Shown here in pieces: positions 1-47,780 of a DNA stretch of 64,000 nt. The DNA lies in contig NZ_OZ060377.1 of the NCBI RefSeq assembly GCF_964059075.1, forward strand, positions 1 to 64,000, given 5' to 3'. The position numbers and the translations under genes are program-made. The DNA is from Buchnera aphidicola (Pterocallis alni). GTDB lineage: Bacteria; Pseudomonadota; Gammaproteobacteria; Enterobacterales; Enterobacteriaceae. Each line of letters starts with the position of its first letter. Position 1 is the first letter of the stretch. A model generated the notes under the pieces. It saw nothing but the letters and a program-made list of their open reading frames with translations, ran no database searches and was not told the DNA's origin.

Positions 1-99
1 TTATTAAATATTTTAGTTCTGTATAATGGTTTATTATTAAATATTTTAGTTCTGTATAATGGTTTATTATTAAATATTTTAGTTCTGTATAATGGTTTA
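1..99. repeat. Three tandem copies of a 33-bp repeat
   Basis: Three identical direct repeats lie at 1-33, 34-66 and 67-99; each begins TTATTAAATATTTTAG and ends GTATAATGGTTTA. The array starts at base 1, so the true copy number cannot be known from the window. It lies just upstream of mnmG, the place where oriC sits in E. coli. I see no DnaA box (TTATNCACA type) in or beside it. Each unit holds a TATAAT hexamer, which in DNA this AT-rich may be chance. It could be an origin-associated iteron-like array, or an assembly effect at the linearisation point. Confidence 0.9.
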
Positions 100-296
100 T
101 TATATATTATTTCTTGTTTTAAAATTTATTTTTTTTTTTAGAAATTTTTAAAAAAATTATATCATATTTATTTGAAAAGTCAATATAATTTGATTTTTTT
201 TTTTATTTTCTAAACAATTTAGAAAAATTTTTTATTGTATTAAATAATTAAATTTATCTAGTATGTTTATTAGATTTAATTAATAAAAGGTATTGT
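100..296. other. AT-rich leader before mnmG, expected origin region
   Basis: About 200 bases of almost pure A+T between the 33-bp repeats and mnmG. No gene, DnaA box or strong hairpin is visible. A ribosome binding site (AAAAGG, 285-290) precedes the mnmG start. In enteric bacteria oriC is next to mnmG, so this together with the repeats is the best origin candidate here, by position only. Confidence 0.4.
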
Positions 297-2189
297 ATGA
301 ATTGTAAATATAATTATTTTGATGTGATTGTAGTAGGTGGTGGGCATGCAGGTATTGAAGCTGCTTTAGCATCATCACGAATGGGTTATAAAATTTTGTT
401 ATTAACTCAATCAATGAATGATTTAGGAACCTTATCTTGTAATCCTGCTATTGGGGGAATTGGGAAAAGTCATTTGGTTAAAGAAATAGATGCGTTAGGT
501 GGTATGATGGCTATTGCAGCTGATTATTCTGGCATTCAGTTTCGTACTTTAAATGCTTCGAAAGGTCCTTCAGTTCGTTCGACCAGAGCACAGGTTGATC
601 GCACAATTTATAAAAAATTTGTTATTAATACTCTAATGAATCAAAAAAATATATTTCTTATTTTAGAAGAAGTACATGATTTAATTATAAAAAATGATAC
701 TATTTTAGGTGTACAAACAATAAATAATAATTTTTTTTACTCTTCTGCAGTAATATTAACAACTGGTACTTTTTTAGGTGGTAAAATCTATTTAGGTTTA
801 AAAAAATATTCTGGTGGTAGAATAAATGATAAATCATCTATTAAATTATCTGATAGGTTAAAAGAATTACCTTTAAAGATTGGAAGATTAAAAACAGGTA
901 CACCTCCTCGAATTGATATTCGTACTATTAATTTTCAACTTTTAACTAAACAATGTGGGGATTCTTTAGAATCAGTATTTTCTTTTATTGGTAATAAATA
1001 TCATCATCCTCCACAAATATCTTGTTATTTAACTCATACTAATGAAAAAACACATAATATTATTAAAAAAAATCTTCAATATAGTCCTATGTATTCCGGT
1101 ATTATATCTGGTATTGGTCCTAGATATTGTCCTTCTATTGAAGATAAGATTATCAGATTTCCAGACAAAAAATCTCATCAAATTTTTATTGAACCAGAGG
1201 GTTTGAATTGTATAGAAGTTTATCCAAATGGTATTTCAACAAGTTTACCTATTAATGTACAACAACAATTAGTTAATTCTATTAAAGGTTTAGAATATGC
1301 TAAGATTATTAAACCTGGTTATGCTGTAGAATATGATTTTATAGACCCTACTGGATTAAAGTTGACTTTAGAAAGTAAATTTGTTAGTGGATTATTTTTA
1401 GCTGGTCAAATTAATGGTACTACTGGGTATGAAGAGGCTGCTTCTCAAGGATTATTAGCAGGATTAAACGCTTCTTTATATGTTTCTAATATGGATGGTT
1501 GGTATCCAAGAAGAAATCAAGCTTATTTAGGTGTTTTGATTGATGATCTATGTACTAAAGGTACTAGTGAACCATATCGTATGTTTACAGCTAGAGCAGA
1601 ATACCGTTTATTATTAAGAGAAGATAATGCTGATTTAAGATTAACAAAAATTGCGAGAAATTTTGGATTAATTAATAATTTAAGGTGGGAAATATATAAT
1701 AAAAAAATTCTTAATATTCGTAAATTAAAAAAAAAAATAAAAGATTTTTTTATTTATCCTAATAGTCAAATTTCTAATGTACTGAATGATGTTTTTCATA
1801 TTAAAATACACAAGAAAACTTATATATCTGATGTAATTAAGCGTCCTGAAATGAATTTTTTAGACATTTTAAAATCAGAAATTTTTTCTATTTTTCATAC
1901 CAATTATGATGCATTATATGAAGTTATTACACAAATAAAATATCAAGGTTATATTTTAAAACAAAAAAAAGAAATTATTAAACATATAAAAAATGAACAT
2001 AGTATTTTACCTATTTCATTTGATTATAGTAAAATAATAGGATTATCCAATGAGGTAATTGTACAATTAAATTTATATCAACCGTATTCTATTGGGCAAG
2101 CTACTCGAATTCCAGGAATTACTCCCGCAGCAATATCTATTTTATTAATTTATTTTAAAAAACATCATCTATTAAATTATTGTATTTAA
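297..2189 (+). CDS. mnmG: tRNA uridine-5-carboxymethylaminomethyl modification enzyme MnmG (GidA)
   Basis: FAD-dependent subunit which, with MnmE (also encoded here at 15050), installs the cmnm5 group on the wobble uridine of several tRNAs. The 630-residue protein has the usual family length. An N-terminal dinucleotide-binding GGGHAG lies at about residues 14-19 and the family signature NPAIGGIGK at about 49-57; the C-terminus keeps the helical tail ([10 protein letters not shown]) that contacts MnmE. ATG follows AAAAGG by 6 bases. It is the first gene beside the presumed origin and is co-oriented with the atp operon downstream. Confidence 0.97.
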
Positions 2190-8885: not shown

Positions 8886-11321
<2,436 letters not shown>

Positions 11322-11392: not shown

Positions 11393-12493
11393 TTATAAAA
11401 TTAGAGGCATGATAATATATAATGAATGAGCTTCTTGATTATTTTCTATATATATACTAGATTTATATTTTGATAATGAAATTTTTATAGTATCGTTTTT
11501 AATCATTTTAATAACATCTAATATGTAGTTAATATTTAATGTTAATTCTATAGGTGTATGATAATAATTGATTGAGAATTTTTCTCTTACTTGATCATTA
11601 TTTTCGTTATTTGTACTAATGGTACACTGTCCGTTATTAAGATATAATTTTATTCCTTGAAATTTTTTATGTACAAGTATAGAAGCTCTATTTAATGCTT
11701 GATATAGTAAATCACGGTTGATTTGTATAATAGTATGAAATTTTTTAATTAATAGATTTTTATAGTTTGGAAATTCGTTATCAATTAATTTACTTGATAT
11801 AATATATTGATTAATATAAAATTTTATTGTTTTTTTTCCAATGATGATGTGTAATACTTTATCAGTATTATCTAATAATTTTATTAATTCAAGAATTGTT
11901 TTTTTTGGTATAATTATTGTCGGAATGTTGTTTATTGTTGGGATTTTGATTTTAGATATTGCCATTCTATAGCCATCTGTTGCTACTGCATAAATTTTAT
12001 TTTTTTTAATTTTAATATATATTCCATTTAAGTAATTCCTAATATCTTGATTTGCAATACAAAAATGTGTATTATAAATAATATTTTTAAATTTTTGATG
12101 CGAGATATGAAAATTTATTGTTTCTTTTTCTTTTTTAAAAATAGGAAAATGTTTTGCATTAAAAATATTTAATATAAAATAAATATTTTTATAAAATATA
12201 CGGATATGATTATTATTAATAGAAACTTGAATTTCAGAATTATTAGGAAAGCTATGAATAATATGTAATAGTTTTTTCCCGGGTATCACTGCTTTTCCAT
12301 TTTGATATATTTTTATACATGTAATTTTTGTGATAAATTCTATTTCTAAGTTTGTACTGATTAAAAATACATTATTTTCTTTAATTATTAATAAAATATT
12401 ATTTATAATAGGTTTTTCATGATTAATAGAAATAATATGGTTTAATTTTTGTACTGGTTGTAGAAAATTTATTTTTTTTATTATAAAGTTCAT
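11393..12493 (-). CDS. dnaN: DNA polymerase III beta sliding clamp
   Basis: Ring-shaped processivity clamp, 366 residues, the exact length of the E. coli protein. Recognisable positions include VATDGYRMAIS in domain II and the C-terminal motif ending YIIMPLIL (E. coli ...YVVMPMRL), which forms the partner-binding pocket. The rest is heavily diverged but colinear. It lies upstream of gyrB, 95 bases away, on the same strand. The usual upstream partner dnaA is absent (see 12494-12796). Confidence 0.95.
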   Translation of the reverse strand: MNFIIKKINFLQPVQKLNHIISINHEKPIINNILLIIKENNVFLISTNLEIEFITKITCIKIYQNGKAVIPGKKLLHIIHSFPNNSEIQVSINNNHIRIFYKNIYFILNIFNAKHFPIFKKEKETINFHISHQKFKNIIYNTHFCIANQDIRNYLNGIYIKIKKNKIYAVATDGYRMAISKIKIPTINNIPTIIIPKKTILELIKLLDNTDKVLHIIIGKKTIKFYINQYIISSKLIDNEFPNYKNLLIKKFHTIIQINRDLLYQALNRASILVHKKFQGIKLYLNNGQCTISTNNENNDQVREKFSINYYHTPIELTLNINYILDVIKMIKNDTIKISLSKYKSSIYIENNQEAHSLYIIMPLIL

Positions 12494-12796
12494 TTTTCAA
12501 TAAATATACTATTAATTATTTTTTTAATCTTGGTATAATAATCATATTAATAAAAATTTTTTCAAAAAAAATTTATTTTATTATAAATATTTTTTTTTAA
12601 ATATGATATATTAATTTTTTATTTAATAAATATTTGTTTATATAATTAAATTTTAATATTTTTATATTATTTATGATATAAATAATATTTATGATATTAG
12701 AACATAAAAAAATTTTTATAAATTGTATATTATATTATTTTTTAATTATAACATTATTATTTATGAATAAATTTTATATTATAAGGGTGGAACAAT
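12494..12796. other. AT-only spacer where dnaA is expected
   Basis: About 300 bases between dnaN and rpmH. In E. coli and in the Buchnera order I know, dnaA (about 450 codons) lies here. I find no DnaA-like motif in any frame (no GVGKTHL-type Walker A, no C-terminal HTH signature) and no open frame of useful size. It must contain divergent promoters for dnaN and rpmH, but none stands out from the A+T background. Confidence 0.8.
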
Positions 12797-12940
12797 ATGA
12801 AACGTACCTTTCAACCATCTCGATTAAAAAGAAGTCGAGTACATGGATTTAGAAAGAGAATGTCTACTAAAAATGGTCGTAATATTATTGCACGTAGAAG
12901 AAATAAATTAAGAATTCGTTTAACTGTTGCTAGTTATTAA
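12797..12940 (+). CDS. rpmH: 50S ribosomal protein L34
   Basis: A 47-residue basic protein beginning [18 protein letters not shown] and ending [13 protein letters not shown], nearly identical in pattern to E. coli L34. A GGTGGAA binding site lies just before the ATG. It is the usual leader gene of rpmH-rnpA-yidC-mnmE. Its stop lies 7 bases before the preferred rnpA start. Confidence 0.97.
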
Positions 12941-12947
12941 TTTTACT

Positions 12948-13292
12948 ATGGATCGTAGGTTTTTTTTTAAAAAAAAAATGCGTTTATCAAATACAGATTT
13001 TATGAAATTGTTTAAAAAATCTACTAAATTTGAAAATAATCAATTAATTGTTTTGAGCTGTTTAAATAGTTTGTCTTTTGCGAGGTTAGGAATAATAGTT
13101 TCAAAAAAGGTTTCTAAACATGCATATAAACGTAATTTAATTAAAAGGATTATTAGAGAAAGTTTTAGATGTGTGAATTATAATTTATTATACATGGATT
13201 TCATTATAATAGTAAAATATATCGTTTCCAAGTTGGATAAAACCAGAATGCATAAAATATTTCAACATGTATGGATGCGTTATTGTAAGTAA
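12948..13292 (+). CDS. rnpA: Ribonuclease P protein component
   Basis: Protein cofactor that pairs with the RNase P RNA encoded at 62400-62752. The RNA-binding basic helix KHAYKRNLIKRIIRESFR is the family RNR motif; RLGIIVSKKV precedes it. The ATG at 12948 gives 114 residues beginning MDRRFFFKKK and fits the family N-terminus; an in-frame ATG at 12927 would overlap rpmH by 14 bases and add seven unconserved residues. Sequence outside the motif is poorly conserved. Confidence 0.92.
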   Translation: MDRRFFFKKKMRLSNTDFMKLFKKSTKFENNQLIVLSCLNSLSFARLGIIVSKKVSKHAYKRNLIKRIIRESFRCVNYNLLYMDFIIIVKYIVSKLDKTRMHKIFQHVWMRYCK

Positions 13293-19469: not shown

Positions 19470-20192
19470 TTATGATGAATAATATTTTCTATAACTCTTC
19501 CAATTGAAATGTAACCATAGTGTATTTTTTAAATTAATTCTATCCATAATTCTCCTTCCTAACAATTGATAAATTGATTGAGTATTTAAATTAGATAGTA
19601 TACCAGTTGATTTATTAGAAGAGTATCTTTTATCTATAATTTGATGTAGTATCATTTTTTCATATTGTGATTTAGTTTGTATTCCAATTTCATCTAATAT
19701 TAGTAAATCAATATTACTAAGGTAATGGATAAATTTTTTTTCTGTTATTTTATTATTTGTATTTTTAAATGTAGATTTTATTTTTAACATTAATTCTGAT
19801 ATTGTGATAATACATACTTTTTTTTTTTGTGATATTAAATATTTTGCTATAGCTGTTGCAAGATGATTTTTACCTGTTCCGGGTAGACCTAAAAATACAA
19901 AGTTGGATTGATTTTTATTAAAATTTTTTGCATATTGTATAGATTTATTTAATACATATTTTTGTTCTTTATATTTTAAGTTATAATTACGAAATGAACA
20001 ATTTATATGTAATGTTTGAATGCCAGAGTTTTTGATAAGATTGTTTTTTTTTATTGTATTGTTTTTTTGAATAATATTTTTAGATGATAACTGCCCTTGT
20101 TGTTGATTCCATTTTAGTAACTCTGTATCTTTAGTAAATTTGGGTTTTATATGATGTGGGATAATTTTTTTTAATCTTTTTAATATATACAT
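19470..20192 (-). CDS. dnaC: DnaB helicase loader DnaC
   Basis: AAA+ ATPase that loads the replicative helicase DnaB. 240 residues (E. coli 245). Walker A GLPGTGKNH at about 102-110, Walker B LLILDEIG, and the arginine-bearing GRRIMDRI (sensor/arginine finger region) are intact. The N-terminal DnaB-binding part retains RLKKIIPHHIKPKF. Keeping the loader while dnaA is not at its normal locus is notable. It forms a minus-strand pair with rsmD, 58 bases apart. Confidence 0.95.
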   Translation of the reverse strand: MYILKRLKKIIPHHIKPKFTKDTELLKWNQQQGQLSSKNIIQKNNTIKKNNLIKNSGIQTLHINCSFRNYNLKYKEQKYVLNKSIQYAKNFNKNQSNFVFLGLPGTGKNHLATAIAKYLISQKKKVCIITISELMLKIKSTFKNTNNKITEKKFIHYLSNIDLLILDEIGIQTKSQYEKMILHQIIDKRYSSNKSTGILSNLNTQSIYQLLGRRIMDRINLKNTLWLHFNWKSYRKYYSS

Positions 20193-46022: not shown

Positions 46023-47780
46023 TTATATATGTGATTTTTTTGATAATTGTTGATTAATTTTCCATAATATTTTTTTTTCTGTGATATTTAAACCATAATA
46101 ACGATCTTTATGAATTAAAGTATTATATTTTTTTTCTAAAGCTATTTGATATATTTTTTTAATTAAATGAATAAATACAATTTTTTTTTTTTTAGTATCA
46201 ATCATATTATTCCAACTTGCTAATTTGTTAATTATATTAAGTTTTTTTTTTTTTGTTCTATAAAATTCAAGAATTTGTCCAGTATTAATATGATTATATT
46301 GTTTACATAGTGAAAATATTTCCATAAATAATGATAGTCCGGGTATATGCATTTTTTTAAATTCGTAAATAGAACATGGAATAATTTGATGTAGGTTTGG
46401 TTTTTGTAAAATTAAACTTATTAATATACGCATATTAGTTGGTTTAATATCTAATATATTATAATGATAGTATTTTTTTTCTTGAAACAGTTTATTTAAT
46501 TCATAATGATCTATAATTCCAATTTGTATTCCTAATTTTTTTTTTAGATGCATTCTGATAAATTTGTCAGGTATTTTGTTAATTAGTGGTATAGCTTTTT
46601 TGATTAATTGTATTTTTTTGTATATAGAATCTATTTTATTTTTTTGATTTATTATATTCATTAAAAAAAAATCGAATATATTGACGGAATTTTTTATCCT
46701 TTTTTTAAATTTTTTTGTTCCCTCTTTATGTATAATGCTATCGGGGTCTTCTCCTTGAGGTAAAAAAATAAATTTTATACTTCTATAGTTTATAAGGTAT
46801 GATAATGCTATTTTCAAAGTTCTCCAAGCTGCTTTGATTCCTGCTACATCTCCATCATAACAATATATAATATTATCAGTTTTTTGAAATAGTACTTTAA
46901 TTTGATTCTTTGTAGTTATCGTACCTAATGATGATACTGTATCTTTAATATTATATTGTACTAATGATATAACATCAAAATATCCTTCTACTACTAGTAT
47001 ATATTTTATTTTATTTTTTTTTTGATAAATTTGGTAAATTCCGTATAAAATATTACTTTTATTAAAAATATATGTATTAGAAGAGTTAATATATTTTGGA
47101 TTATTAGCATTGATGGTTCTTCCCCCTAAAGCGATAATTTTACCATATTTATTTTGTATAGGAAAAATAATTCTATTTTTAAATCTTTCATATTGTGTAT
47201 TGTTTGTATTGTTATATAGTATACCTAATTTTATTAAACTATAAATATATTTTTTATTTTTTTTGATTATCGGGTTTGATAATAAAGTATTTATTTGTGC
47301 AAATCCAATTTGAAAATATTTAATCATTGCATTGTTTATTTTTCTTTTTTTTAAGTATTTTTGTGCTATGTGAGAGTTTTTATTTTGTAAGTTAAAGTAA
47401 TATAATTTTGATGCTATTTCTATAATTTTATATAATTTTTTTTTTTTACAGTATTGTTGTTGAATCTTTTCATTAAAAAATTTGTATGGTATGTGAATAT
47501 TAAATACATTAGAAATTGTTTGAATACTATCTAAAAATGATGATTGGTTGTATTTCATTAAGAAATCTATTATATTTCCGTGCGCATTACATCCAAAACA
47601 ATGAAAATATTGTTTATTTTCATTAATAGAAAAAGAAGGTGTTTTTTCATTATGAAAAGGGCAAATACTATAGTAATTTTTTCCTATTTTTTGTAATTTA
47701 ATATACATTTCAATTAATTGAACAATATTTGTTTGATCTAGTATGTTTTTTATAATATCTGGAGGTATGAAATAATTCAT
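46023..47780 (-). CDS. dnaG: DNA primase
   Basis: Makes RNA primers at the fork. 585 residues (E. coli 581). The CHC2 zinc finger (CPFHNEKTPSF ... FHCFGC, about residues 40-64), the RNA polymerase basic motif, and TOPRIM motifs VVEGYFDVISL and YDGDVAG are intact. The C-terminal DnaB-interacting domain is present but hardly conserved. It lies between rpsU and rpoD; a hairpin precedes it. Confidence 0.96.
   Translation of the reverse strand: MNYFIPPDIIKNILDQTNIVQLIEMYIKLQKIGKNYYSICPFHNEKTPSFSINENKQYFHCFGCNAHGNIIDFLMKYNQSSFLDSIQTISNVFNIHIPYKFFNEKIQQQYCKKKKLYKIIEIASKLYYFNLQNKNSHIAQKYLKKRKINNAMIKYFQIGFAQINTLLSNPIIKKNKKYIYSLIKLGILYNNTNNTQYERFKNRIIFPIQNKYGKIIALGGRTINANNPKYINSSNTYIFNKSNILYGIYQIYQKKNKIKYILVVEGYFDVISLVQYNIKDTVSSLGTITTKNQIKVLFQKTDNIIYCYDGDVAGIKAAWRTLKIALSYLINYRSIKFIFLPQGEDPDSIIHKEGTKKFKKRIKNSVNIFDFFLMNIINQKNKIDSIYKKIQLIKKAIPLINKIPDKFIRMHLKKKLGIQIGIIDHYELNKLFQEKKYYHYNILDIKPTNMRILISLILQKPNLHQIIPCSIYEFKKMHIPGLSLFMEIFSLCKQYNHINTGQILEFYRTKKKKLNIINKLASWNNMIDTKKKKIVFIHLIKKIYQIALEKKYNTLIHKDRYYGLNITEKKILWKINQQLSKKSHI

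Follow-up and report, generated by a model that had tools for sequence, protein, structure and literature searches.

The gene dnaA, which starts DNA copying in almost all bacteria, has been lost from the chromosome studied here, and we regard this as near certain. Because dnaA is lost, initiation should run without DnaA. From a single minimum of cumulative GC skew near der/mnmG and a maximum about half-way round the genome, we infer that most replication still begins at the old oriC locus or close to it and proceeds bidirectionally. The window, i.e., the whole stretch of DNA that was analysed, comprises 64,000 bases (positions 1-64000 of a single 421,582-bp contig). Its genome, G000, was compared with relatives having the der/mnmG arrangement. 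Of the genomes examined, 26 share this arrangement: the 11 that make up the window's genus here (g1, G000-G010), G000 included, plus 15 more.

The order gyrB-dnaN-[dnaA]-rpmH is kept on both sides of the former dnaA position, as the earlier note had described, and the slot is exactly 303 bp long with a GC content of 7.3%, against 23.6% for the whole genome (Table 1). The slot lacks a DnaA motif, as the same note had stated: nine DnaA queries (E. coli and eight relatives) showed no similarity to positions 12494-12796 at E ≤ 1. A promoter scan of the slot returned fewer promoter-like sites than were found in shuffles and was given no weight. Among the slots of 14 dnaA-less genomes, the sole candidate for a DnaA remnant was a match in G003 (E 0.81), which was taken as chance. 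In E. coli, recF sits between gyrB and dnaN; here, the E. coli recF query was unmatched in the genome and no recF lies between these two genes.

Table 1. Features of the window and its genome, and tandem arrays in the der-mnmG spacer of the window's genome (G000) and its relatives. Several contigs end inside arrays, leaving the junctions unclosed, so that the copy numbers given are either minimum values or uncertain.
Feature	Position	Strand	Basis or description
der-mnmG spacer, window part (predicted origin)	1..296	.	bases 1-103 are a perfect tandem array, 33 bp x 3.1
der-mnmG spacer, other half	genome 421399-421582 (opposite contig end, outside the window)		array, 31 bp x 5.9
mnmG, gene to the right of the predicted origin spacer	297..2189	+	NCBIfam name and E. 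coli match
gyrB	8886..11297	-	NCBIfam name
dnaN (beta clamp), left flank of slot	11393..12493	-	NCBIfam TIGR00663 and synteny
former dnaA slot	12494..12796	.	303 bp, 7.3% GC, without DnaA similarity or detectable remnant
rpmH (L34), right flank of slot	12797..12940	+	reading frame; 73% identity to E. coli RpmH
rnpA	12927-13292	+	NCBIfam name
dnaC helicase loader, intact	19470..20192	-	NCBIfam; equivalents of E. coli E176/K178 are K and Q
dnaG primase	46023..47780	-	E. coli query, 37% over 581 aa
array, G000			31 bp x 5.9 plus 33 bp x 3.1
array, G002			37 bp x 3.9
array, G003			37 bp x 6.5
array, G006			91 bp, two blocks
array, G007			35 bp x 99.8 (~100 copies without mismatch, 3.5 kb), at GC-skew minimum
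array, G008			94 bp x 3.1
array, G100 (dnaA present)			83 bp x 3.9
array, G136 (dnaA present)			20 bp x 11.5

Searches of the whole genome gave the same result. The DnaA C-terminal domain (PF08299) had no match at E ≤ 10, PF00308 and TIGR00362 matched DnaC only (TIGR00362 below its cut-off), and the best tblastn match of E. coli DnaA had an E-value of 9.2. With the DnaA proteins of eight relatives, the best matches were DnaC (E 5e-4) and a site at 257.4 kb (E 0.009). The latter, resembling DnaA domain I (E 0.009 and 0.047), was rejected as chance because it crosses the stop codon between two neighbouring frames, which we take to be minC and minD. In a positive control with the E. coli DnaA query, all six dnaA-bearing Buchnera-like relatives tested showed a DnaA in the slot, with 38-60% identity. 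The suspicion of the earlier note that dnaA is lost genome-wide was thereby upheld, as the tblastn and profile check (two Pfam models, one NCBIfam model and nine DnaA proteins) gave no dnaA elsewhere.

That a dnaA was overlooked because it lies on a plasmid that was not assembled, or within a gap of the assembly, is in our estimation extremely improbable. The completeness of 96% leaves some room for it, as do contig ends lying inside repeats, so that the junction is not closed. However, the slot is closed and syntenic: in all dnaA-less Buchnera-like genomes but one (13 of 14) it measures 109-551 bp, and dnaA was found in none of the 11 genomes of the genus. A leucine plasmid is common in Buchnera. 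Here leuABCD is chromosomal (genome 251488-256240) and no IncFII-type RepA was found, so a plasmid of this usual type is probably absent and is not expected as a carrier.

The gene order iscS-iscU-fdx-der/mnmG-atp-gyrB-dnaN-rpmH-rnpA-yidC-mnmE-groEL-efp-dnaC (iscS, iscU and fdx named by reading frames), the genome size and a tree of five proteins (LG+F+R4) place the genome, on sequence grounds, among Buchnera-like aphid symbionts. The DnaA C-terminal domain was detected in 169 of 198 genomes of the family sample and in 0 of 11 of the genus; among the other 15 Buchnera-like genomes it was present in 12 and missing in G040, G062 and G109. Slot length ranged from 126 to 551 bp in the genus and was 265 bp in G062 and 109 bp in G109. 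The 1487-bp slot of G040 contains no frame longer than 49 aa and no DnaA match, which has the appearance of advanced decay. The longest DnaA frame reaches only 223-368 aa in four of the 12 dnaA-bearing genomes (G119, G136, G168, G173); dnaA may thus be in decay in these as well, with further losses under way. The genus forms one clade in the tree (support 100), perhaps joined by G109 (59), and G040 and G062 form another with the dnaA-bearing G101 (95). These positions indicate that dnaA was lost at least twice in the Buchnera-like group. According to a 2015 paper, Buchnera retained dnaA (PMC4389277). No report of dnaA loss in Buchnera was found in the literature searched, and the loss may already be in print.

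The cumulative GC skew of the window's genome has one minimum, at 417,918 of 421,582 and hence 3.7 kb short of the end of the contig, and a single maximum at 195,940. The minimum lies at 422,430 of 422,485 in G007, within the array, at 1 (detrended 431,040) of 434,704 in G003, and at 426,139 of 431,406 in G004, where the skew was computed less 5.4 kb of the genome. Maxima were found about half-way round in the window's genome, G007 and G003, with skew amplitudes of 6527, 5431 and 5431, respectively, versus maxima of 2058, 1856 and 2058 in 2000 block shuffles per genome. Cumulative skew, which had been named in the earlier note as the way to place the origin, thus puts it no more than about 4 kb away from der/mnmG. 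From the skew alone, one fixed bidirectional origin at this place is likely.

DnaA boxes are gone from this locus. The motif TTWTNCACA occurs 70 times across the genome and 0 times in the 598-bp der-mnmG spacer, in agreement with the initial observation that no DnaA box lies near mnmG. TTATMCACA boxes were found in the spacers of seven of 12 dnaA-bearing relatives, usually two and ~55 bp apart, versus one of 14 dnaA-less genomes; the single exception is G040, whose dnaA slot remains long. Four dnaA-bearing genomes (G173, G054, G136, G101) have no TTATMCACA in the spacer, and G168 has a weaker match only. Among the features of an enterobacterial oriC, the window's spacer therefore retains the position beside mnmG but not the DnaA boxes.

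The skew also bears on the proposal that there is no dedicated origin and that initiation is dispersed, at breaks or R-loops anywhere, the skew being a relic that predates the loss of dnaA. Recombination and restart genes are gone, which would leave such sites little constrained. We nevertheless consider dispersed initiation distinctly improbable. The skew is strong, and in G000, G003, G004 and G007 its minima lie at the contig junction or no further than ~5.3 kb from it. Furthermore, the GyrB of the other species is 66-70% identical to that of the window, and because the species have diverged so far, a relic should have faded.

Strong, near-perfect tandem arrays are present in the der-mnmG spacer of six of the 11 genomes of the genus (G000, G002, G003, G006, G007, G008). 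They are absent in G004 and G009 and degenerate in G001 and G010 (the truncated spacer of G005 was left out). The 33-bp and 31-bp arrays of the window's genome run right up to the two ends of the contig, whose circular junction is therefore probably not closed. Within the genus, the arrays are confined by tree position to the eight-species G000 subclade, and G004 and G009 have none; they are therefore probably younger than the loss of dnaA. They cannot serve as a hallmark of that loss: the dnaA-bearing G100 and G136 have strong ones, and the dnaA-less G004 and G009 have none. Two further impressions were abandoned. A likeness by eye of the repeat units of G000, G003 and G007 received no support from comparison. 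Counted by eye, the + strand of the 31-bp unit contains 10 G but not a single C, a bias that would favour an R-loop towards mnmG; it was dropped as evidence, as the G007 unit is unbiased.

The arrays themselves might constitute a new, iteron-like origin, opened by a putative binding protein of the symbiont or imported from the host. All six lie in the same spacer, from which DnaA boxes have disappeared, and they are the sole arrays scoring ≥120 in the whole of G003 and G007 (the window's genome has one other site, scoring 122). Moreover, the units are alike in G001, G002, G003 and G010, with pairwise z of 3.5 to 16.8 for five of six pairs (G002-G010, −0.2). Between subclades, however, the units are unrelated (G000-G007, z 0.2; G003-G007, z −0.5); G000 and G003 do share a match (z 2.9), but it falls outside the arrays. 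G004 has two similarly scoring arrays elsewhere, and IncFII-type RepA (PF02387), the only Rep family searched, was found in 0 of 11 genomes. Together with the missing or degenerate arrays in four species of the genus and the strong ones in two of 12 dnaA-bearing genomes, these results make an iteron-like origin unlikely.

E. coli queries matched dnaB, dnaC, dnaG, ssb, dnaN, dnaE, dnaQ, gyrB and rho in the window's genome; ruvB gave only an 86-residue match (E 2e-5). In addition, polA was matched over its N-terminal part only (genome 304928-305698), and mfd is shortened, without its N-terminal third (genome 222010-224199). The tblastn matches of PriA and RecG at ~222.5-223.7 kb fall on mfd and were discarded. 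The queries detected no dnaA, hda, seqA, dam, recA, recBCD, recF, recG, fis, HU/IHF, rep, uvrD or topA, and no priA, priB, priC, dnaT, rnhA or rnhB, although short PriB-like proteins could escape tblastn. For Dam, SeqA, Hda, Fis and IHF (ihfA query left out), the best E-value was 0.8 or worse. The genes rep and uvrD are present in G003 and G007.

Among 45 small genomes, HU/IHF (PF00216) was found in 22 and the PriA domain (PF17764) in 20, the PriA-positive set including three genomes with short frames only (G040, G133, G173); both were found in 0 of 11 genomes of the genus. RNase HI was present in 31 of the 45 and missing in all 11 of the genus, G086, G109 and G168, and RNase HII had no match in the window's genome. 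Among Buchnera-like genomes, RNase HI was absent from 12 of 14 without dnaA versus one of 12 with it. In each of the dnaA-bearing relatives G129 and G202, the RNase HI match is divided between two frames, which may reflect decay of rnhA. TopA was found in five of the 45 small genomes; its loss was set aside as uninformative because it is missing in the other 40. In these searches, none of the partners that normally recruit DnaC-DnaB to DNA was detected, yet DnaC is maintained.

For initiation itself, we tentatively favour, at somewhat less than even probability, an R-loop or bubble at der/mnmG as a preferred fixed origin, with a self-sufficient DnaC loading DnaB, because this is the simplest reading that uses only the genes left. 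Transcription would open the AT-rich, divergently transcribed der/mnmG spacer into an R-loop or a bubble, and the opening would persist unprocessed because RNase HI and HII are gone. DnaC, needing no recruiter, would load DnaB on the exposed strand, after which DnaG and Pol III would build forks. Such a process would resemble E. coli constitutive stable DNA replication but would dispense with RecA and PriA and use one preferred site. Inactivation of rnhA is reported to permit DnaA-independent initiation at R-loops in E. coli (PMC13220808; PMC4631800). Stable replication there is described as requiring PriA and RecA (PMC4631800; PMC13220808), and rnhA recB is reported inviable (PMC4631800). RecA, PriA and recBCD are all missing here, which counts against the mechanism, so it would have to be a stripped-down variant. 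Also against it, the dnaA-less Buchnera-like G040 and G062 keep RNase HI, and the non-Buchnera G016, G017, G094 and G110 are without dnaA and PriA yet keep it. The association with RNase HI may represent one or two events, because 11 of the genomes share one ancestor, perhaps with G109 (support 59). The mechanism is offered as a hypothesis, and shared ancestry weakens the correlations.

Alternatively, the host or a co-resident symbiont might supply an initiating factor, the loss of dnaA handing control of replication to the aphid. Host supply has been proposed in print for dnaA-less insect symbionts (PMC4389277; PMC8611330); for the present case we consider it quite unlikely.

DnaC loading by itself, as in the mechanism that we favour, directs attention to the sequence of this protein. 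DnaC was retained, as originally noted, and occurs in 11 of 11 genomes of the genus (frames with ≥225 aligned residues), 26 of 26 Buchnera-like genomes and 30 of the 45 small genomes. Among the 12 dnaA-less genomes of the latter set that are not Buchnera-like, only G133 had a DnaC match. The window's DnaC matched NF005931 best among NCBIfam models, at 302.6 bits (below the 357-bit cut-off). It keeps the equivalents of K112, D169, E170 and R220, from the P-loop, the Walker B acidic pair and a conserved arginine. In E. coli, dnaC809 is E176G; the double allele dnaC809,820 also carries K178N and suppresses the loss of priA with no need for PriC or Rep (PMC539235). In 20 DnaC sequences from outside the genus, residue 176 is E in 18 and Q in two, and residue 178 is R in 18, K in one and N in one. 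Within the genus, residue 176 is K, A, H or Q in four of 11 and E in six of 11, and residue 178 is Q or L in two. Departures from E at 176 and K or R at 178 occur in eight of 20 sequences from PriA-less genomes versus 0 of 11 from PriA-bearing ones (p = 0.028, ancestry ignored), and by our reading of the tree they would amount to about seven separate events. Relaxed constraint alone could explain residue 176, because 22 of 78 columns that are invariant elsewhere vary in the genus, seven of the 22 in at least four species.

A more extensive scenario, which we think rather unlikely, describes a recruiter-free minimal system. After the loss of dnaA, priA, recA and rnhA, DnaC would have evolved self-loading via parallel changes at 176 and 178, acting at a fixed, transcription-opened origin beside mnmG whose boxes were replaced by fast-turnover arrays.

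Initiation mechanisms without dnaA have been called unclear (PMC4389277), and the genus offers a natural test of bacterial replication without DnaA. New here are the fixed skew origin, the loss of boxes, the arrays, the loss of PriA, RNase HI and HU/IHF with DnaC kept, and the changes at DnaC 176/178. The genomes form a graded series, from those with dnaA and boxes, through G040 and G062, which have lost dnaA and keep PriA matches and RNase HI, to the genus of the window, without dnaA, PriA and RNase HI yet with DnaC and a skew origin. Two predictions are an R-loop at der/mnmG and a role of DnaC 176/178 as a natural PriA bypass.

Insect endosymbionts reported to lack dnaA include Blochmannia of Camponotus, Wigglesworthia, Baumannia, Blattabacterium, Carsonella and Sulcia (PMC4389277). 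As in these, dnaA was lost genome-wide from a reduced chromosome; unlike them, the present genome belongs to a Buchnera-like lineage, said to have retained the gene (PMC4389277). In Blochmannia, the skew is reported to set the origin beside mnmG, with DnaA boxes at background level, and likewise here. The comparison with Blochmannia drawn in the earlier note applies to dnaA, and also to priA and recA, all reported missing there, and so holds in part. DnaC is kept in 11 of 11 genomes here, whereas 11 of the 12 dnaA-less small genomes that are not Buchnera-like had no match. The oriC with two DnaA boxes that PMC4389277 cites for Buchnera occupies the same der-mnmG locus; in contrast, the window's spacer has no boxes, and tandem arrays occur in six of 11 genomes of the genus. 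A direct-repeat array at the predicted origin (31 bp x 5.9 and 33 bp x 3.1) is a likeness to iteron origins. The window's DnaC is changed at both positions, 176 and 178, that the E. coli suppressor alleles dnaC809 and dnaC809,820 affect, and its genome gave no match to PriA, PriC or Rep; the residues are K and Q rather than G and N, and most relatives keep E176. With E. coli constitutive stable DNA replication (rnhA, oriK), the genome shares a cell without RNase HI and, as inferred here, replication without DnaA. It differs in missing RecA and PriA, and its skew indicates one preferred bidirectional origin in place of several oriK sites.
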